A stretch of DNA of 64,000 bases from Myxococcales bacterium. GTDB lineage: Bacteria > Myxococcota_A > Polyangia > Haliangiales > Haliangiaceae. The notes under the pieces were generated by a model. That model saw nothing but the letters and a program-made list of their open reading frames with translations, made no database searches and was not told the DNA's origin. Below, piece by piece: positions 44,830 through 57,007 of the stretch; position 1 is the first letter of the stretch, and every line of letters starts with the position of its first letter. The stretch lies in contig JAEUJY010000021.1 of the NCBI GenBank assembly GCA_016794525.1, positions 1-64,000 on the forward strand, read 5' to 3'. The translations under genes were made by a program, and so were the position numbers.

Positions 44830-47133
44830 ATGCGCAAGCTTCTCGCCGGCTTCCTGTTCGCGTCCGCGCTGTCTGGCGCCACCGGCTGTGCCTCCAAGGC
44901 CAAGCCCACCACCACCTTCGTCAAGGTCGACCAGGTGTCGCTGGGCAAGGTCGTCGTCTACCGCAACGGCGTCGCGTTCTACGAGCGCCGGGCCCAGGTC
45001 GAGGGCGGCAAGCTGACGGTGCGGGTGCCGCGCGATCGCGTCGACGACTTTCTCAAGTCGCTGACCGTGGTCGACGCCAAGACCGGCAAGCCGCTCCCCG
45101 CCAGCTTCCCGCGCCAGCAGAGCGACGGCGGCCCGTTCCTCGAGATGACGCTCGACATCCCCACCGCCAAGGAGCCCGGCCAGATCGCCGACGTCGTCCT
45201 GACCTACGTCACCGAGGCGCCGGTGTGGAAGCCCAGCTACCGCATCGCGATCTCCGACAGCGGCAAGGTCATGCTCGAGGGCTGGGCCATCGTCGACAAC
45301 ACCTCGGGCGAGGACTGGAAGGACGTGATGGTCGGCGTCGGCTCGAGCTCGGCCCTGTCGTTCCGCTACGACCTGTGGAGCGTGCGCACGGTCGAGCGCG
45401 AGACGCTGCACATCGACGAGCAGTTCGCGGTGGCGCCGCCGACCGCGGTGTCGCCCTACGGCGGCGCCGGTGGCGAGGCCGCCCCGACGATGGTCGCCGA
45501 GCTGGGCGACGACGAGATCCGCCGGCCGGCCGGCCACCCCGAGAACCTCGACGCGCGCCTGGCCAAGAACGCCGAGGAGGTCGAGGACTACGGCGACGCC
45601 GGCGCCGACGACGGCGACTTCGGCAACCTCGACGTCGCCACCGGCAGCGTCGCCCCGTCGGCGCCCAGCGCGTCGCGCGGCGGCGGCGCCGGCATGGGGG
45701 GTGGCTACCGCGACGACAGCGGCGGCGGCAAGAAGCGCCCGGCCAAGCCCAAGGACGCGGCCAAGGCGGCGCGGGTGGCCAAGCTCGAGCAGGAGCGGGC
45801 CCAGCTCGAGTACCAGCGGCAGCGGGTGTCCGAGGGCGACCGCAAGGTCGCGCAGCTCGCGCCCGACCTGATCAAGAACAAGCGCAACCTCGTGATCGAG
45901 GGCTACGCCGACGTCAACGAGCCGGGCAGCGAGCAGCGCGCGATGGACCGCGCCAACATCGTCAAGATGCAGCTGATCGACGCCGGCGTGCCGCCGGCGC
46001 AGATCCGCGTCGTCAACCGCGGCGCGGTGCCGGGCCAGCGCGCCGGCGTGCGGATGGTGACCGAGGCCCCGACCGCCGAGAAGACCGCCGGCGGCGCCAA
46101 GCCGGCCGAGGCCGACGCCTCGCCGGTGGGCGAGAGCCACTTCCAGTCCGAGATCCCGATGACCGTGGCCAAGGGCACCAGCGTGATGGTGTCGATGGTG
46201 CGGTCGGAGACCGACGGCGAGCAGGTCTACCTCTACGACGCCGAGAGCGATCGCGGCAACGACCGCTTCGCGTTCAAGGCGGTGCGGCTGCACAACCCGA
46301 CCGACTCGACGCTCGAGACCGGGCCGGTGACGGTCTACGGCGACGACCGCTACATCGGCGAGGGCCTGACCGAGCCGATCCCGCCCAAGGCCAACGTCGT
46401 CGTGCCGTTCGCGCTCGACCGGCAGATCGTCGTCGACCGCGACGACGCGACCGAGAACCAGGTGGCGCGGCTGGTGACCTTGCAGCGCGGCATCCTGACC
46501 GCCGAGGTCCAGCACATCAAGCGCACCAAGCTGACGTTCACCAGCCGGCTGCACACGCCGACCAAGGTCTACGTCCGCCACACCACCGAGAAGGGCTGGC
46601 TGGTGCTCGACGCGCCCAAGACCTACGAGCGGCTGGGCGACGCCCACCTGTTCGAGATCGCGCTGGGCGCCGGCGAGACCAAGGTGGTCGAGATCGCCGA
46701 GGCGACGCCGCTGACCCGCACGCTCGACCTGGCGCAGCCGACGACGCTCGACATGATGAAGGTGTTCGTCGACAGCCCGCACCCGAGCCCCGAGCTCAAG
46801 AAGCAGCTGCAGGACCTGCTGGCGATCCACCGCGAGGTGATCGACACCGACGAGAAGATCGCCAACCTGCGCGACCGCGCCGCCGAGTACCGCCTGCGCA
46901 TGGACGAGCTGAACGACCAGATCATCTCGCTCAAGAAGGTCAAGACCGCGACCAGCCTGTCGCGCAACCTGCAGGACAAGATGAAGGACATCTCGGACCG
47001 CGTGCAGAAGACGACGATCGACATCGTCGACAACCAGGAGAAGCTGATGCTGGCCAAGGTCCGCTTCCAGGACGCGCTGGCCGAGCTGACGCTGCCCGAC
47101 GCAGCGGCGCACCTCGCCGTCACGGCGCCGTGA
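44830..47133 (+). CDS. DUF4139-type lipoprotein (paralogue 1)
   Basis: 767 residues from ATG 44830. Signal with lipobox (SGATGC, Cys20). N-terminal module with KVVVYRNGVAFYERRAQVEGG and DDFLKSLTVVD, then WKPSYRIAISD and EGWAIVDNTSGEDWKDV. After FAVAPPTAVSPYGG comes a variable linker of about 130 residues, here acidic and Gly-rich (about 195-300), then an OmpA-like LVIEGYADVNE ... DRANIVKMQLIDAGV. The DUF4139 core follows with RFAFKAVRLHNPTDS and LDRQIVVDRDD, ending in a coiled coil (about 640-740). First of three paralogues (also 52115 and 54788). Envelope protein of unknown role. Confidence 0.87.
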   Translation: MRKLLAGFLFASALSGATGCASKAKPTTTFVKVDQVSLGKVVVYRNGVAFYERRAQVEGGKLTVRVPRDRVDDFLKSLTVVDAKTGKPLPASFPRQQSDGGPFLEMTLDIPTAKEPGQIADVVLTYVTEAPVWKPSYRIAISDSGKVMLEGWAIVDNTSGEDWKDVMVGVGSSSALSFRYDLWSVRTVERETLHIDEQFAVAPPTAVSPYGGAGGEAAPTMVAELGDDEIRRPAGHPENLDARLAKNAEEVEDYGDAGADDGDFGNLDVATGSVAPSAPSASRGGGAGMGGGYRDDSGGGKKRPAKPKDAAKAARVAKLEQERAQLEYQRQRVSEGDRKVAQLAPDLIKNKRNLVIEGYADVNEPGSEQRAMDRANIVKMQLIDAGVPPAQIRVVNRGAVPGQRAGVRMVTEAPTAEKTAGGAKPAEADASPVGESHFQSEIPMTVAKGTSVMVSMVRSETDGEQVYLYDAESDRGNDRFAFKAVRLHNPTDSTLETGPVTVYGDDRYIGEGLTEPIPPKANVVVPFALDRQIVVDRDDATENQVARLVTLQRGILTAEVQHIKRTKLTFTSRLHTPTKVYVRHTTEKGWLVLDAPKTYERLGDAHLFEIALGAGETKVVEIAEATPLTRTLDLAQPTTLDMMKVFVDSPHPSPELKKQLQDLLAIHREVIDTDEKIANLRDRAAEYRLRMDELNDQIISLKKVKTATSLSRNLQDKMKDISDRVQKTTIDIVDNQEKLMLAKVRFQDALAELTLPDAAAHLAVTAP

Positions 47134-52114: not shown

Positions 52115-54679
52115 ATGCGTCGAGGTATCTCGCTGGCGCTGGTCGTCGGCATGGTCGCGGGGTGCGGGGGGCGGCTGCGCCATGTCGCGGTGGATCGCGT
52201 GCCGCTGGGCAAGGTGGTCGTGTACCGCAACGGCGTGGCGTTCTATGAGCGGCGGGCGCGGGTGGTGGGCGGCAAGGTGCGGGTGCGCGTGCCGCGGGAG
52301 CGCGTCGATGACTTCTTGAAGTCGCTGACGGTGGTCGACGCGGCGTCGGGGCGGGCGCTGCCGGTGACGTTCCCGCGTCGGCAGGCGGCGGACGCTGCGG
52401 TGATCGACATGGAGCTCGACGTCGGCGGCGGCGCGGCCGACGTGGTGATGACCTACATCACCGACGCGGCGGCGTGGAAGCCGAGCTACCGGCTGGTGCT
52501 GGGCGACGACGACGCGGCGATGCTCGAGAGCTGGGCGGTGGTCGACAACCAGTCGGGCGAGGACTGGAACGACGTGGCGATCGGCGTCGGGGCCAGCGCG
52601 GCGATGTCGTTCCGCTACGACCTGTGGAGCGTGCGCACGGTCGATCGCGCGACGCTCGCGCAGGACGAGGTGTTCGCGGTGGCGCCGCCGACCGCGGTGA
52701 GCCCCTACGGCGGTGACGGGACCGCGGTCGCCGCGGCGACGCCGCTGGTGACGCTGGACGCCGACGAGATCCGCGGCGCGAGCGCCGGGGCACCGACCCC
52801 ATCGCCGACCCCGTCTCCGACCCCGACTCCGTCTCCGTCTCCGACCCCGTCTCCGTCCCCGTCTCCGTCGGTGACCCCGCAGGTGATCCCGTACGACGGC
52901 GGTGGCACCGCCACGACCGGCACGATCCAGGGCCGGGTCACGGATACGATCGCCGGCGACGCGATCGCCGGGGTGACCGTGGACGCGCGCGGCCCGGCCG
53001 GTTCCGGGACTGCGATCACCGAGGAAGATGGCAGCTACCGCATCGTCGGGCTCGCGCCCGGCGAGTACATGTTGACGTTCTTCCTGGGCGAGGCCCAGTT
53101 CGCGCGCCCCGGCGTCCGGGTCGTGGTCAACAAGACCACGCCGGTGTTCCAGAAGCTCAACCCGGAGCTGCCGGTCACCGAGATCATCGAACTCCAAGGC
53201 CGCATGCCGGCGATCGATCCGACCTCGACCACGCAGGGCATCACGATCGATCAGGACTACACGCGGAACATCCCGGTGCCGGGGCGCACGTTCGGGGCCA
53301 CGCTCGGCACCGCTGCCGGGCGCAGCGACGACGATGGCGACGCGCCACGATCGCCGCCGCCGCCGCCACCGGATCCGTACGCGCAGGTGCGCCTGGGCGA
53401 TCAGAAGCTGAAGGAGGTCGCGGCGGGGCTGATCAAGGACCGTCGCCCGGTGGTGGTGCAGGGCTTCGCGGCGCCCGGCGAGCTCGCGCCCGAGCGCGCG
53501 GCGCTGGCCCGCGCCAACCTGGTGCGCAACCAGCTGATCGACGCCGGGGTCGCGCCGGCGCGGGTCGGCGTGGCCAGCGCCGGCGTCGGCGCGCGCGCGA
53601 TGGTGCAGATCGTCGCCGGCACCGCGGGCCACGCCGAGACCCGGGCCGCGGCGCCGCGCGCCGAGGTCAGCGCCGACGCGCCGCCGATCGGCGAGAGCCT
53701 GTTCGCGGCGCCGACGACGGTGCGGGTCGCGAACGGGCAGAGCACGATGGTGTCGGTGCTGCGCGCGCCGACCACCGGCCGCGAGGTCTACCTCTACGAC
53801 GGCGACGGCGAGCGCGGCAACGCGCGGTTCGCGTTCAAGGCGGTGCGGATCGCCAACCCGACCGGCGCGACGCTGGAGGCCGGGCCGATCACGGTCTACG
53901 GCGCTGGCCGCTACGTCGGCGAGGGCCTGGCCGGCGCGATCGCGCCCCACGCCGCCGCGGTGGTGCCGTACGCGCTCGACCGGCAGATCGTCGTGGCCCG
54001 CGAGCGCGCCACCGCCGACGAGCTGGCGCGGCTGACCTCGGTCGCGCGCGGCGTGGCGACCGCCGAGGTCCAGCACCTGCGCACGACGACGTTGACGATC
54101 ACCAGCCGGCTGCGCACGCCGACGACGGTCTACGTGCGGCACCCGGTCGAGGCCGGCTGGACGCTGCTCGAGCCAGGCGTGCCCCGCGAGCGCGACGGCG
54201 ACCACGTGCTGCTCGCGGTCGAGCTGCCGGCCGGCGCGACCCGCGCGCTGGCGCTGCGCGAGGCGACGCCGATGACCCGGCGGCTGGCCTTCACCGACGC
54301 GGCGGCGGTCGACGAGCTGCGGCTGTTCGTCGACAGCGGCCGGGCCAGCGGGGCGCTGCGGCAGCAGCTCGCGGCGTTCCTCGCGGCCCACGCGGCGCTG
54401 ATCGACGCCACCGAGCGCGCCGCCGGGCTGCGCGAGCGCGCGGCCGAGTACCGCGCGCGCCAGGCCGAGCTGATGGCGCAGCTGGTGGCGCTGCGCAAGC
54501 TCCAGAGCGCGGCGGTGCTCAGCCGGACGCTGGCGGCCAAGCTCGCGGACATCGCCACCCGGCTGCAGGAGACGACGCTGGCGATCACGACGGCCGACGA
54601 CGCGGTGACGCTGCGCCGGGTGGACCTGGCCGACGCGATCGCGCTGGTGCACCTCGACGACGCGCTGGCGGCGCGCTGA
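52115..54679 (+). CDS. DUF4139-type lipoprotein with CarboxypepD-like and TonB-plug-like insert (paralogue 2)
   Basis: 854 residues from ATG 52115, 6 nt after AGGAGG (52103-52108). Lipobox MVAGC (Cys17). The conserved N-terminal module (KVVVYRNGVAFYERRARVVGG) ends at APPTAVSPYGG. The variable site then holds a Pro/Thr/Ser linker (226-255), a carboxypeptidase-regulatory domain (about 266-345, GTIQGRVTD, DGSYRIVGLAPGEY) and a TonB-receptor plug start (AIDPTSTTQGITIDQDYTRN, IPVPGRTF, to about 402). A PPPPPPDPY joint leads to the OmpA-like stretch, the DUF4139 core and the C-terminal coiled coil. No receptor barrel is present. The insert is in canonical receptor order. Confidence 0.87.
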   Translation: MRRGISLALVVGMVAGCGGRLRHVAVDRVPLGKVVVYRNGVAFYERRARVVGGKVRVRVPRERVDDFLKSLTVVDAASGRALPVTFPRRQAADAAVIDMELDVGGGAADVVMTYITDAAAWKPSYRLVLGDDDAAMLESWAVVDNQSGEDWNDVAIGVGASAAMSFRYDLWSVRTVDRATLAQDEVFAVAPPTAVSPYGGDGTAVAAATPLVTLDADEIRGASAGAPTPSPTPSPTPTPSPSPTPSPSPSPSVTPQVIPYDGGGTATTGTIQGRVTDTIAGDAIAGVTVDARGPAGSGTAITEEDGSYRIVGLAPGEYMLTFFLGEAQFARPGVRVVVNKTTPVFQKLNPELPVTEIIELQGRMPAIDPTSTTQGITIDQDYTRNIPVPGRTFGATLGTAAGRSDDDGDAPRSPPPPPPDPYAQVRLGDQKLKEVAAGLIKDRRPVVVQGFAAPGELAPERAALARANLVRNQLIDAGVAPARVGVASAGVGARAMVQIVAGTAGHAETRAAAPRAEVSADAPPIGESLFAAPTTVRVANGQSTMVSVLRAPTTGREVYLYDGDGERGNARFAFKAVRIANPTGATLEAGPITVYGAGRYVGEGLAGAIAPHAAAVVPYALDRQIVVARERATADELARLTSVARGVATAEVQHLRTTTLTITSRLRTPTTVYVRHPVEAGWTLLEPGVPRERDGDHVLLAVELPAGATRALALREATPMTRRLAFTDAAAVDELRLFVDSGRASGALRQQLAAFLAAHAALIDATERAAGLRERAAEYRARQAELMAQLVALRKLQSAAVLSRTLAAKLADIATRLQETTLAITTADDAVTLRRVDLADAIALVHLDDALAAR

Positions 54680-54787
54680 TCGTCACTGTCGCACCCCGCG
54701 CTGGCCGGGTCGCAGCGGGCCAGCAGCGGTGAGCCACGGGCGGGGACCCGATCGGCGTCCGGCGCGTGAACCCGAGCAGGAGGAACC

Positions 54788-57007
54788 ATGCGTCACTGCC
54801 TGTCCCTGTCGCTCTTGCTCGCCGCGCTCGCCGCCTGCGGGCCCCGCGCGCCCCGCCACGTCGCCGTCGACAAGGTGCCGCTCGGCAAGGTCGTCGTCTA
54901 CCGCAACGGCGTCGCGTTCTACGAGCGCCGCGCCCAGGTCGCCGGCGGCAAGCTGACGGTGCGGGTGCCGCGCGAGCGGGTCGACGACTTCCTGAAGTCG
55001 CTGACGGTGGTCGACGCCCGCACCCAGACGCCGCTGCCGGTGTCGTTCCCGCGGCGGCAGGCCGACGACGCGCCGGTGATCGACATGCAGCTCGACGTCG
55101 GCGGCGTGGTCGGCGATCGCGCCGACGTCGTGATGACCTACGTCACCGACGCCGCGGCGTGGAAACCCAGCTACCGGCTGGTGCTGGGCAAGGACGACGG
55201 CGCGATGCTCGAGGGCTGGGCGGTGGTCGACAACCTGTCGGGCGAGGACTGGAAGGACGTCGTCGTCGGCGTCGGCTCGAGCTCGGCGATGTCGTTCCGC
55301 TACGACCTGTGGAGCGTGCGCACGGTCGATCGCGCCGAGCTGTCGCCCGAGGAGGCGTTCGCGATCGCGCCGCCGACCGCGGTCAGCCCGTACGGCGGCA
55401 GCGCCGGACCGCAGGCCGCCGAGCAGAACGTGCTGACCCTCGACGCCGAGGAGATCCGCGGCAACGCGACGCTCACCGAGGACTACACCAAGAACATCCC
55501 GGTCGGGCGCACGTTCGAGAGCGTGCTCGGGACCGCGGCCGGCAGCCAGGGCGATCAGCTCGGCGGGTCGTTCTCGGGCTCGACGTCGCTCGAGAACACC
55601 TACGTCGTCGACGGCATCAACACCACCGATCGCGCGCCGACGATCGATCCGACGTCGACCAGCCAGGGCGTCACGCTCCAGCCGCCGCCGCCCGACCCGT
55701 ACGCGTCGGTCAAGCTCGGCGACGAGAAGCTCGGCCAGGTGTCGAGCGCGCTGATCAAGCAGCGGCAGTACGTCGTGGTCCAGGGCTACGCCGCGCCCGG
55801 CGAGCGCGACGGCGACAAGGTCGCGCTCGAGCGCGCCAACCTGGTGCGCAACCAGCTGATCGACGCCGGCGTCGCGCCGGGCCGGGTGCGGGTGGCGTCG
55901 GGCGGCGTCGGCGCGCGGGCGTCGGTGGCGATCCTCACCGAGGCGGCGCCTGCCGAGGCCGCGGCCAAGGCGGCGTCGGTCGCCGACACCAGCGACGCCG
56001 CGCCGGTCGGCGAGAGCCTGTTCTCGTCGGGCACGCCGATGACCGTCGGCGACGGCACCAGCGCGATGGTGTCGGTGCTGCGGGCCAAGACCACCGGCCG
56101 CGAGGCGTACCTCTACGACGGCCTCGGCGAGCGCGGCAACGCGCGGTTCGCGTTCAAGGCGGTGCGGCTGGAGAACCCGACCGACTCGACGCTCGAGGCC
56201 GGGCCGATCACGGTCTACGGCGAGGGCCGATACGTCGGCGAGGGCCTGACCGACGCGGTCGCGCCCCACGCCGCGGTGGTCATCCCCTACGCGCTCGATC
56301 GGCAGATCGTCGTCGACGCTGGCGGCGGCACCCACGACGAGCTGTCGCGGCTGCTGACGCTCGAGCGCGGCATCCTCACCGCCGAGGTCCAGCACATCCG
56401 CACCCGCACGCTCACCCTGACCAGCCGGCTGCGCGGCCCGTCGACGGTGTACGTCCGCCACGCGATCGAGCCGGGCTGGCAGCTGCTCGACACGCCGCTG
56501 CCGATCGAGCGGGTCGGCGACGCGCTCTTGGTCGCGGTCGAGCTGGGCGCCGGCGAGACCAAGCAGATCGAGCTGCGCGAGGCGACGCCCTTGACCCGGC
56601 GCCTCGAGCTGGGCGCCAGCGACACGCTCGATCAGCTCGCGGTCTACGTGCAGAGCGATCGGCCGACGTCGGCGCTCAAGAAGCAGCTCGAGGCGATCCT
56701 GGCGATCCACCGCGAGCTGTTCGACACGGTCGACAAGATCGCCAGCCTGCGCGAGCGCGCCGCCGAGTACCGGGATCGTCAGGCCGAGCTGACCGGCCAG
56801 CTGATGAGCCTGCGCAAGGTCAAGACCGCCGCCGCGCTGTCGACCCAGCTCGCCGAGAAGGCCGCCGACATGGCGACCCGCCTGCAGGCGACGACGCTGG
56901 CGATCGTCGACGCCCAGGATCGCATCATGCTGATGCGCGTGCAGTTCGCCGACGCGCTGGCCGAGCTGCACCTCGCCGACGTCTCGACCATCGCGGCCGC
57001 GCCCTGA
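54788..57007 (+). CDS. DUF4139-type lipoprotein with TonB-plug-like insert (paralogue 3)
   Basis: 739 residues from ATG 54788, 4 nt after AGGAGG (54778-54783). Lipobox ALAAC (Cys17). N-terminal module as in the other two (to YGG at about 204). The variable site (about 219-297) holds TEDYTKNIPVGRTFESVLG, then GSFSGSTSLENTYVVDGINT, the plug of Oar-type TonB receptors, and after it APTIDPTSTSQGVTLQ, which normally comes before. OmpA-like VVQGYAAPGE ... LERANLVRNQLIDAGV follows, then the DUF4139 core and a coiled coil (about 640-735). No barrel, no CarboxypepD domain. Closest in sequence to paralogue 2. Confidence 0.88.
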   Translation: MRHCLSLSLLLAALAACGPRAPRHVAVDKVPLGKVVVYRNGVAFYERRAQVAGGKLTVRVPRERVDDFLKSLTVVDARTQTPLPVSFPRRQADDAPVIDMQLDVGGVVGDRADVVMTYVTDAAAWKPSYRLVLGKDDGAMLEGWAVVDNLSGEDWKDVVVGVGSSSAMSFRYDLWSVRTVDRAELSPEEAFAIAPPTAVSPYGGSAGPQAAEQNVLTLDAEEIRGNATLTEDYTKNIPVGRTFESVLGTAAGSQGDQLGGSFSGSTSLENTYVVDGINTTDRAPTIDPTSTSQGVTLQPPPPDPYASVKLGDEKLGQVSSALIKQRQYVVVQGYAAPGERDGDKVALERANLVRNQLIDAGVAPGRVRVASGGVGARASVAILTEAAPAEAAAKAASVADTSDAAPVGESLFSSGTPMTVGDGTSAMVSVLRAKTTGREAYLYDGLGERGNARFAFKAVRLENPTDSTLEAGPITVYGEGRYVGEGLTDAVAPHAAVVIPYALDRQIVVDAGGGTHDELSRLLTLERGILTAEVQHIRTRTLTLTSRLRGPSTVYVRHAIEPGWQLLDTPLPIERVGDALLVAVELGAGETKQIELREATPLTRRLELGASDTLDQLAVYVQSDRPTSALKKQLEAILAIHRELFDTVDKIASLRERAAEYRDRQAELTGQLMSLRKVKTAAALSTQLAEKAADMATRLQATTLAIVDAQDRIMLMRVQFADALAELHLADVSTIAAAP

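Follow-up and report, generated by a model that had tools for sequence, protein, structure and literature searches.

Three tandem DUF4139 lipoproteins differ in one linker

The window, by which we mean the whole 64-kb stretch of DNA analysed and to whose positions all coordinates refer, contains three DUF4139 lipoproteins in tandem on one strand, P0003, P0001 and P0002 (paralogues 1, 2 and 3; Table 1). An earlier note on this DNA had placed three paralogues at 52115-57007. Three exist, but this range contains only P0001 and P0002, while paralogue 1 is encoded at 44830-47133. All strings quoted in that note were found, in open frames bearing a lipobox. Identity to P0002 is 64% for P0001 and 55% for P0003. 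All three follow a common plan of lipobox, split DUF4139 domain, variable linker, OmpA-like domain, remaining DUF4139 strands and helical C-terminus. DUF4139 is split after ∼50 profile positions, and the linker starts after PPTAVSPYGG and precedes the OmpA-like domain. As the note had proposed, a shared core thus surrounds one variable site, filled by an acidic linker in P0003 and by receptor modules in P0001 and P0002. Upstream of P0001 (51704-52049) GC-rich low-complexity repeats are open in several frames.

The lipobox cysteine (VAGC17 in P0001, LAAC17 in P0002 and ATGC20 in P0003) lies in a column, C17 of P0002, that is almost invariant among 29 homologues. By their signal peptide with a lipobox cysteine the three proteins are classed as bacterial lipoproteins, and lipidation is predicted. 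PF13598 scored 30.1, 30.5 and 25.1 bits in the three paralogues, under the cut-off of 31.8 bits, with the insert splitting the domain; a genome search gave 33.0 bits for P0001. TIGR02231 reached 34-44 bits, below its curated cut-off of 112.6. A PDB sequence search with P0003 revealed no clear relative, and a literature search on DUF4139 returned nothing relevant.

Table 1. Positions of the three lipoprotein genes and their features in the 64-kb window
Feature	Position	Strand	Evidence
P0003 (paralogue 1), DUF4139 lipoprotein with acidic/low-complexity linker and OmpA-like half-domain, no receptor modules	44830..47133	+	
P0003 lipobox ATGC	44878..44889	+	sequence
P0003 OmpA-like stretch	45856..46029	+	PF00691 2.9e-5
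P0001 (paralogue 2), DUF4139 lipoprotein with receptor modules A-T-C	52115..54679	+	
P0001 lipobox VAGC	52154..52165	+	sequence
P0001 split DUF4139, first part	52448..52588	+	Pfam
P0001 module A, receptor-like CarboxypepD_reg, predicted well folded	52913..53161	+	Pfam 3e-12; profile 93 bits
P0001 module T, TonB-box-like TEIIEL then QGRMPAIDPTSTTQGITID, predicted disordered	53177..53251	+	36 bits
P0001 module C, first plug piece QDYTRNIPVPGRTFGATLGTAAG, predicted disordered	53252..53329	+	46 bits
P0001 OmpA-like stretch, key Asp replaced by Ala (GFAA)	53399..53584	+	Pfam
P0002 (paralogue 3), DUF4139 lipoprotein with permuted receptor modules C-D-T	54788..57007	+	
P0002 lipobox LAAC	54827..54838	+	sequence
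P0002 split DUF4139, first part	55133..55273	+	Pfam
P0002 module C DYTKNIPVGRTFESVLGTAAGSQGD, predicted disordered	55481..55555	+	54 bits
P0002 module D QLGGSFSGSTSLENTYVVDGINT, predicted disordered	55556..55630	+	49 bits
P0002 truncated module T DRAPTIDPTSTSQGVTL, without TonB box	55625..55678	+	28 bits
P0002 OmpA-like domain, key Asp replaced by Ala	55724..55906	+	Pfam; Foldseek

The linkers of P0001 and P0002 are N-terminal sequence of Oar-type receptors

The N-termini of 55 receptors from this and related genomes were aligned and cut into modules, from which profiles were built. Module A is the CarboxypepD_reg domain, T the TonB box plus PTIDPTSTTQGITID, C the first plug piece DYTKNIPVPGRTFESALGAAAGSQGD, D GVSFSGSTSLENQYVVDGVNTTGLTYG and E the remainder (second half) of the plug. 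These profiles matched P0001 with 36-93 bits and P0002 with 28-54 bits, and found none of the modules in P0003. Twenty shuffles of every protein gave a best score of 9.1 bits, by which a chance resemblance of the inserts to receptors is rejected. In P0002 module T stands after D, whereas receptors have T before C. Read from sequence only, TEIIEL occupies the TonB-box position in P0001 and the box is missing in P0002. In the host genome, the best match to the P0002 piece outside the lipoproteins is frame C95 (76% identity, query 228-281) and a further one is frame C5 (64%, query 223-283); both are of receptor length, and C95 includes a barrel and is classed by Pfam as Oar-type. Profiles and matches identify the inserts as N-terminal sequence of Oar-type TonB receptors, comprising CarboxypepD_reg, TonB box and first plug half. 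The claim of Oar receptor pieces in barrel-less lipoproteins was thereby borne out.

The profile search proposed in the note (TonB plug, CarboxypepD_reg, DUF4139) had a mixed outcome. CarboxypepD_reg was called by Pfam in P0001 (3e-12), being absent from P0002, and the receptor-built plug profiles matched, but Pfam Plug made no call in P0001, P0002 or P0003 and DUF4139 stayed at 25-30 bits. Pfam Plug misses the inserts for want of module E, the second and most conserved half of the plug. E scored <6 bits in every barrel-less carrier and is present in 55 of 55 receptors, which were picked partly by an E motif; its absence from DUF4139-, vWA- or VIT-domain proteins is unaffected by that selection. 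Pfam detected no barrel family in P0001-P0003.

The plug pieces are predicted to be disordered

AlphaFold predictions for P0001 and P0002, which rest on 29 sequences, show a folded CarboxypepD_reg domain in P0001 (pLDDT 92-96), followed by a disordered T-C segment (residues 353-412, pLDDT ∼32-43). The C-D-T segment of P0002 (∼232-298) is likewise disordered (pLDDT 30-49), so the prediction of paralogue 3 alone, which the note had suggested, lent no support to a plug fold. This bears on the idea that the pieces go into Oar barrels or cap them, or that they complement in trans the plug of a receptor. The inserts do contain true plug sequence with the conserved motifs VDGxNT and SGxxSxEN. However, every copy lacks the plug core, the modules are permuted and disorder is predicted for the segment, and we regard such plug mimicry as very unlikely. 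Of the docking partners that the note had offered, plug mimicry and barrel docking were not supported. It is still reasonable to suspect a TonB-like partner, since nearly all barrel-less copies with a complete T module retain the TonB-box positions.

Behind the insert, the OmpA-like domain matched the C-terminal domains of Pal, YfiB and OmpA in Foldseek (probability 1.00, rmsd ∼2-3 Å over ∼90 columns). In such domains an Asp and an Arg contact peptidoglycan. The Arg is kept in the three paralogues, while the Asp is kept in P0003 (GYAD) and replaced by Ala in P0001 and P0002. Among the homologues, 21 of 26 insert-free copies but 1 of 20 insert-bearing copies retain the Asp, a link that is not significant, with only 3-4 independent events underlying the counts.

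Receptor modules occur in several envelope proteins of Kofleriaceae

With the receptor-built profiles, modules were found in ∼24 DUF4139 proteins from ∼21 genomes of the Kofleriaceae, a family of soil and sludge myxobacteria. Records of the close relatives are Kofleriaceae, Myxococcales and other deltaproteobacterial metagenome-assembled genomes; one scan of genome contigs gave myxobacterial, deltaproteobacterial or 'Proteobacteria' metagenome entries only. An assembly chimera is unlikely, because the arrangement recurs in ∼21 genomes of different projects. In the host genome, two receptors and three barrel-less proteins are strong carriers. YfbK-type vWA proteins with receptor modules are encoded in the host (contig C116) and in four further genomes (G006, G015, G025 and G028). 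The host protein (L075/L125, C116 2355-4421) has a receptor-type A-T-C plus a fragment of D at its N-terminus. Some related Kofleriaceae YfbK proteins contain a generic CarboxypepD_reg domain alone, without T, C or D. VIT-vWA proteins carry C-D near the C-terminus in G001-G005 and modules inside the protein in G014 and G016. Thus several unrelated envelope proteins of Kofleriaceae carry rearranged pieces of the Oar docking end without a barrel. Among 29 genomes from another order of the class, module hits were of receptor length except for a few short frames (274, 297, 755 and 873 aa). A literature search for plug pieces in barrel-less proteins returned nothing relevant.

Some carriers show further features. 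In the five same-genus VIT-vWA proteins (L132, L133, L134, L139 and L140), C-D lies just before a C-terminal segment ending GLGLRW, and L132 scored 477 bits for a marine proteobacterial sortase target family (cut-off 551.65). In G028, an apparent VIT/vWA-type protein end (L147, 2034-2510) has a T module before a MYXO-CTERM-like tail. G015 also encodes a small CarboxypepD_reg protein with modules and an N-terminal hydrophobic stretch. The earlier note had mentioned neither the OmpA-like domain nor the permutation of modules, nor that vWA and VIT proteins have such pieces as well.

The note had itself named as fatal the possibility that the insert belongs to DUF4139 proteins in general, and this is not the case. 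Instead of receptor modules, many DUF4139 copies in these genomes, like those found outside Kofleriaceae, have a linker of acidic, repeat, low-complexity or other type at this position. One is a host paralogue (L015, contig C46, 328-2565) with Asp-rich repeats DGVADVEDACPDG and an OmpA domain. Such diversity would also be expected if Oar N-terminal coding segments were often inserted in-frame into the disordered linkers of secreted proteins and tolerated as spacers without a receptor-related role; module content is variable and no module is universal. Against mere filler, every carrier found resembles an envelope protein, a cut between D and E is seen repeatedly and several architectures acquired the same pieces.

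Modules are permuted in one circular order and were captured repeatedly

Receptors have the order A-T-C-D-E in 54 of 55 cases and C-D-E in one, a count that is partly circular because receptors were picked partly by the E motif. In barrel-less carriers the order is mostly permuted, and includes D-A-T-C, C-D, A-T-C-D, A-T-C, C-D-T, D-T-C, T-C-D-A and C-D-A-T-C. Yet one circular order, A>T>C>D>A, is followed throughout (adjacent pairs: TC 23, AT 21, CD 21, DA 11, DT 4, AC 1), and D-to-A junctions sit close behind the GLTYG end of D. The permutation, with its one circular order, would be explained if an A-D unit had been duplicated in tandem and then trimmed.

In a tree of the DUF4139 core, from which the insert was excluded, four changes of insert state are needed and inserts appear at about four points. 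Forcing the insert-bearing copies together was rejected by the AU test (p = 0.0024, and p = 0.0004 without L066; L069 was omitted from both), and with it a single ancient capture, although gene conversion between adjacent paralogues in the genus of the window could mimic multiple captures. The DUF4139 linker has been filled by an Oar N-terminal segment more than once in Kofleriaceae, and the module-capture site postulated in the note is borne out. Synonymous codon agreement of P0001 and P0002 with their nearer receptors (0.74-0.77) equals the background between two diverged receptors (0.76). Recent gene conversion from receptors is therefore rejected, and the lipoprotein copies are old. Separate donors of the window paralogues, with C-D of P0002 toward C5-type and P0001 toward C95-type receptors, are only weakly indicated.

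Positions conserved in receptors are conserved in the lipoproteins

Within the lipoproteins, conservation is lowest in the inserts (dN/dS 0.37-0.69, compared to 0.08-0.20 in the N-terminal and 0.15-0.37 in the C-terminal core; dS estimates are rough owing to high GC and codon bias). That they change faster than the cores is in line with filler. When insert codons were divided by receptor conservation, however, dN/dS was 0.30 (0.22-0.42) in receptor-conserved and 0.91 (0.71-1.18) in receptor-variable columns, although the former are rich in Gly, Pro and Arg and composition alone may slow their change. For modules T, C and D alone the values were 0.25 and 0.77. Further support is provided by seven lipoprotein pairs, with 257 same and 57 different residues in receptor-conserved and 151 and 209 in receptor-variable columns, columns within a pair not being fully independent. 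These results indicate that the lipoproteins keep what receptors keep, and from this constraint the receptor pieces appear to be functional, as linear motifs. With receptor-conserved columns at 0.25-0.30 and the remainder near 1, tolerated filler is unlikely.

The box Glu is identical in 22 of 22 aligned barrel-less copies and the hydrophobic box positions are kept too, although local profile alignments stop at mismatches and may make module ends, and with them the box, look more conserved than they are. Barrel-less copies that align there show no variation at C residues R12, G23 and D27 or at D residues G8, Y16 and G20. Some carriers have no box, namely P0002, its 87% orthologue and the VIT-vWA proteins with C-D alone, from which it follows that TonB is not the partner of every module. 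The box-less C and D of P0002 and of the VIT-vWA proteins from five genomes, and the invariant residues, would also suit a trafficking or assembly signal, in which a Kofleriaceae chaperone, sorting or surface-exposure factor reads the motifs of Oar, vWA/VIT proteins and lipoproteins without TonB. No candidate factor was identified, and the box is kept in nearly every copy with a complete T module; we consider this explanation quite unlikely.

Discussion

Selection on the pieces despite the missing barrel suggests that the same partner as that of the receptors holds or pulls the carriers. Our tentative reading, to which we give somewhat less than an even chance, is that the inserts serve as linear motifs for docking to whatever partner Oar receptors have, TonB being the simplest candidate. 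The disordered pieces would act as short linear motifs read by the periplasmic partner of the Oar N-terminal end, in the simplest case the C-terminal domain of TonB. In this way the Ton machinery and Oar complexes could pull or recruit the lipoprotein, or the lipoprotein could compete for them. Loss of the Asp in the OmpA-like domain would fit a switch from wall anchoring to docking, and the box-less P0002 may keep the C and D contacts only. Going further, the lipoproteins, placed in the outer membrane, and the vWA/VIT proteins might be resident barrel-less clients of the Ton motor, displaying disordered box/plug motifs to receive force or to compete; we hold this to be possible but doubtful. 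Selective retention of TonB-box and plug motifs on lipoproteins and vWA proteins would imply that further envelope proteins are handled by the Ton motor or by some other partner in common. The permuted modules also form a natural experiment on which parts of a receptor plug work as linear motifs without the plug fold.

Oar of Myxococcus xanthus consists of CarboxypepD_reg, Plug and a 22-strand barrel, its N-terminal part binds TonB C-terminal domains, and box and plug are required for PopC secretion (PMC6434023). The spacing of the Oar substitutions E118R and I122P (PMC6434023) matches the E-x-x-x-I of module T; by this spacing we infer that the residues correspond. Modules A, T (TonB box), C and D of Oar-type transporters are homologous to the insert modules, with the same conserved residues. 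In contrast to Oar, the lipoproteins lack the second plug half and the barrel, and have a lipid anchor, permuted modules and a DUF4139/OmpA-like context. No 22-stranded barrel is present in P0001 or P0002, where the OmpA-like domain, DUF4139 strands and helical C-terminus come after the insert. The host genome has 13 TonB_C matches. A 912-aa host frame (L199, contig C3, ∼65531-65758) contains TonB_C followed by CarboxypepD_reg-like and plug core sequence, an apparent TonB-receptor fusion.

The likeness to the MuiA/DUF4139 family (PF13598, TIGR02231) lies in the core domain around the insert; the proteins described here differ as lipoproteins with sub-cut-off scores and a domain split by a long insert containing the OmpA-like domain. 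Among YfbK-type vWA proteins with a generic CarboxypepD_reg domain, some Kofleriaceae members have the receptor-type A-T-C(-D) at the N-terminus, whereas related ones do not. With Pal and the OmpA-like peptidoglycan-binding lipoproteins the paralogues share a lipid anchor and the OmpA-like fold, but most insert-bearing copies lack the Asp expected to contact peptidoglycan, extra domains are present and the partner is putative. Pal is mobilised by the Tol system (PMC12204202). As Pal is worked by Tol, so TonB may act on the barrel-less carriers, a likeness that we propose. The paralogues can also be set beside the known targets of TonB. In the prevailing view TonB works on transporters of the outer membrane and on the bacteriocins that exploit these, and bacteriocins with a disordered TonB box are foreign imported proteins. 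They likewise present a disordered TonB-binding epitope on a non-transporter, whereas the paralogues here are resident lipoproteins with a putative epitope.
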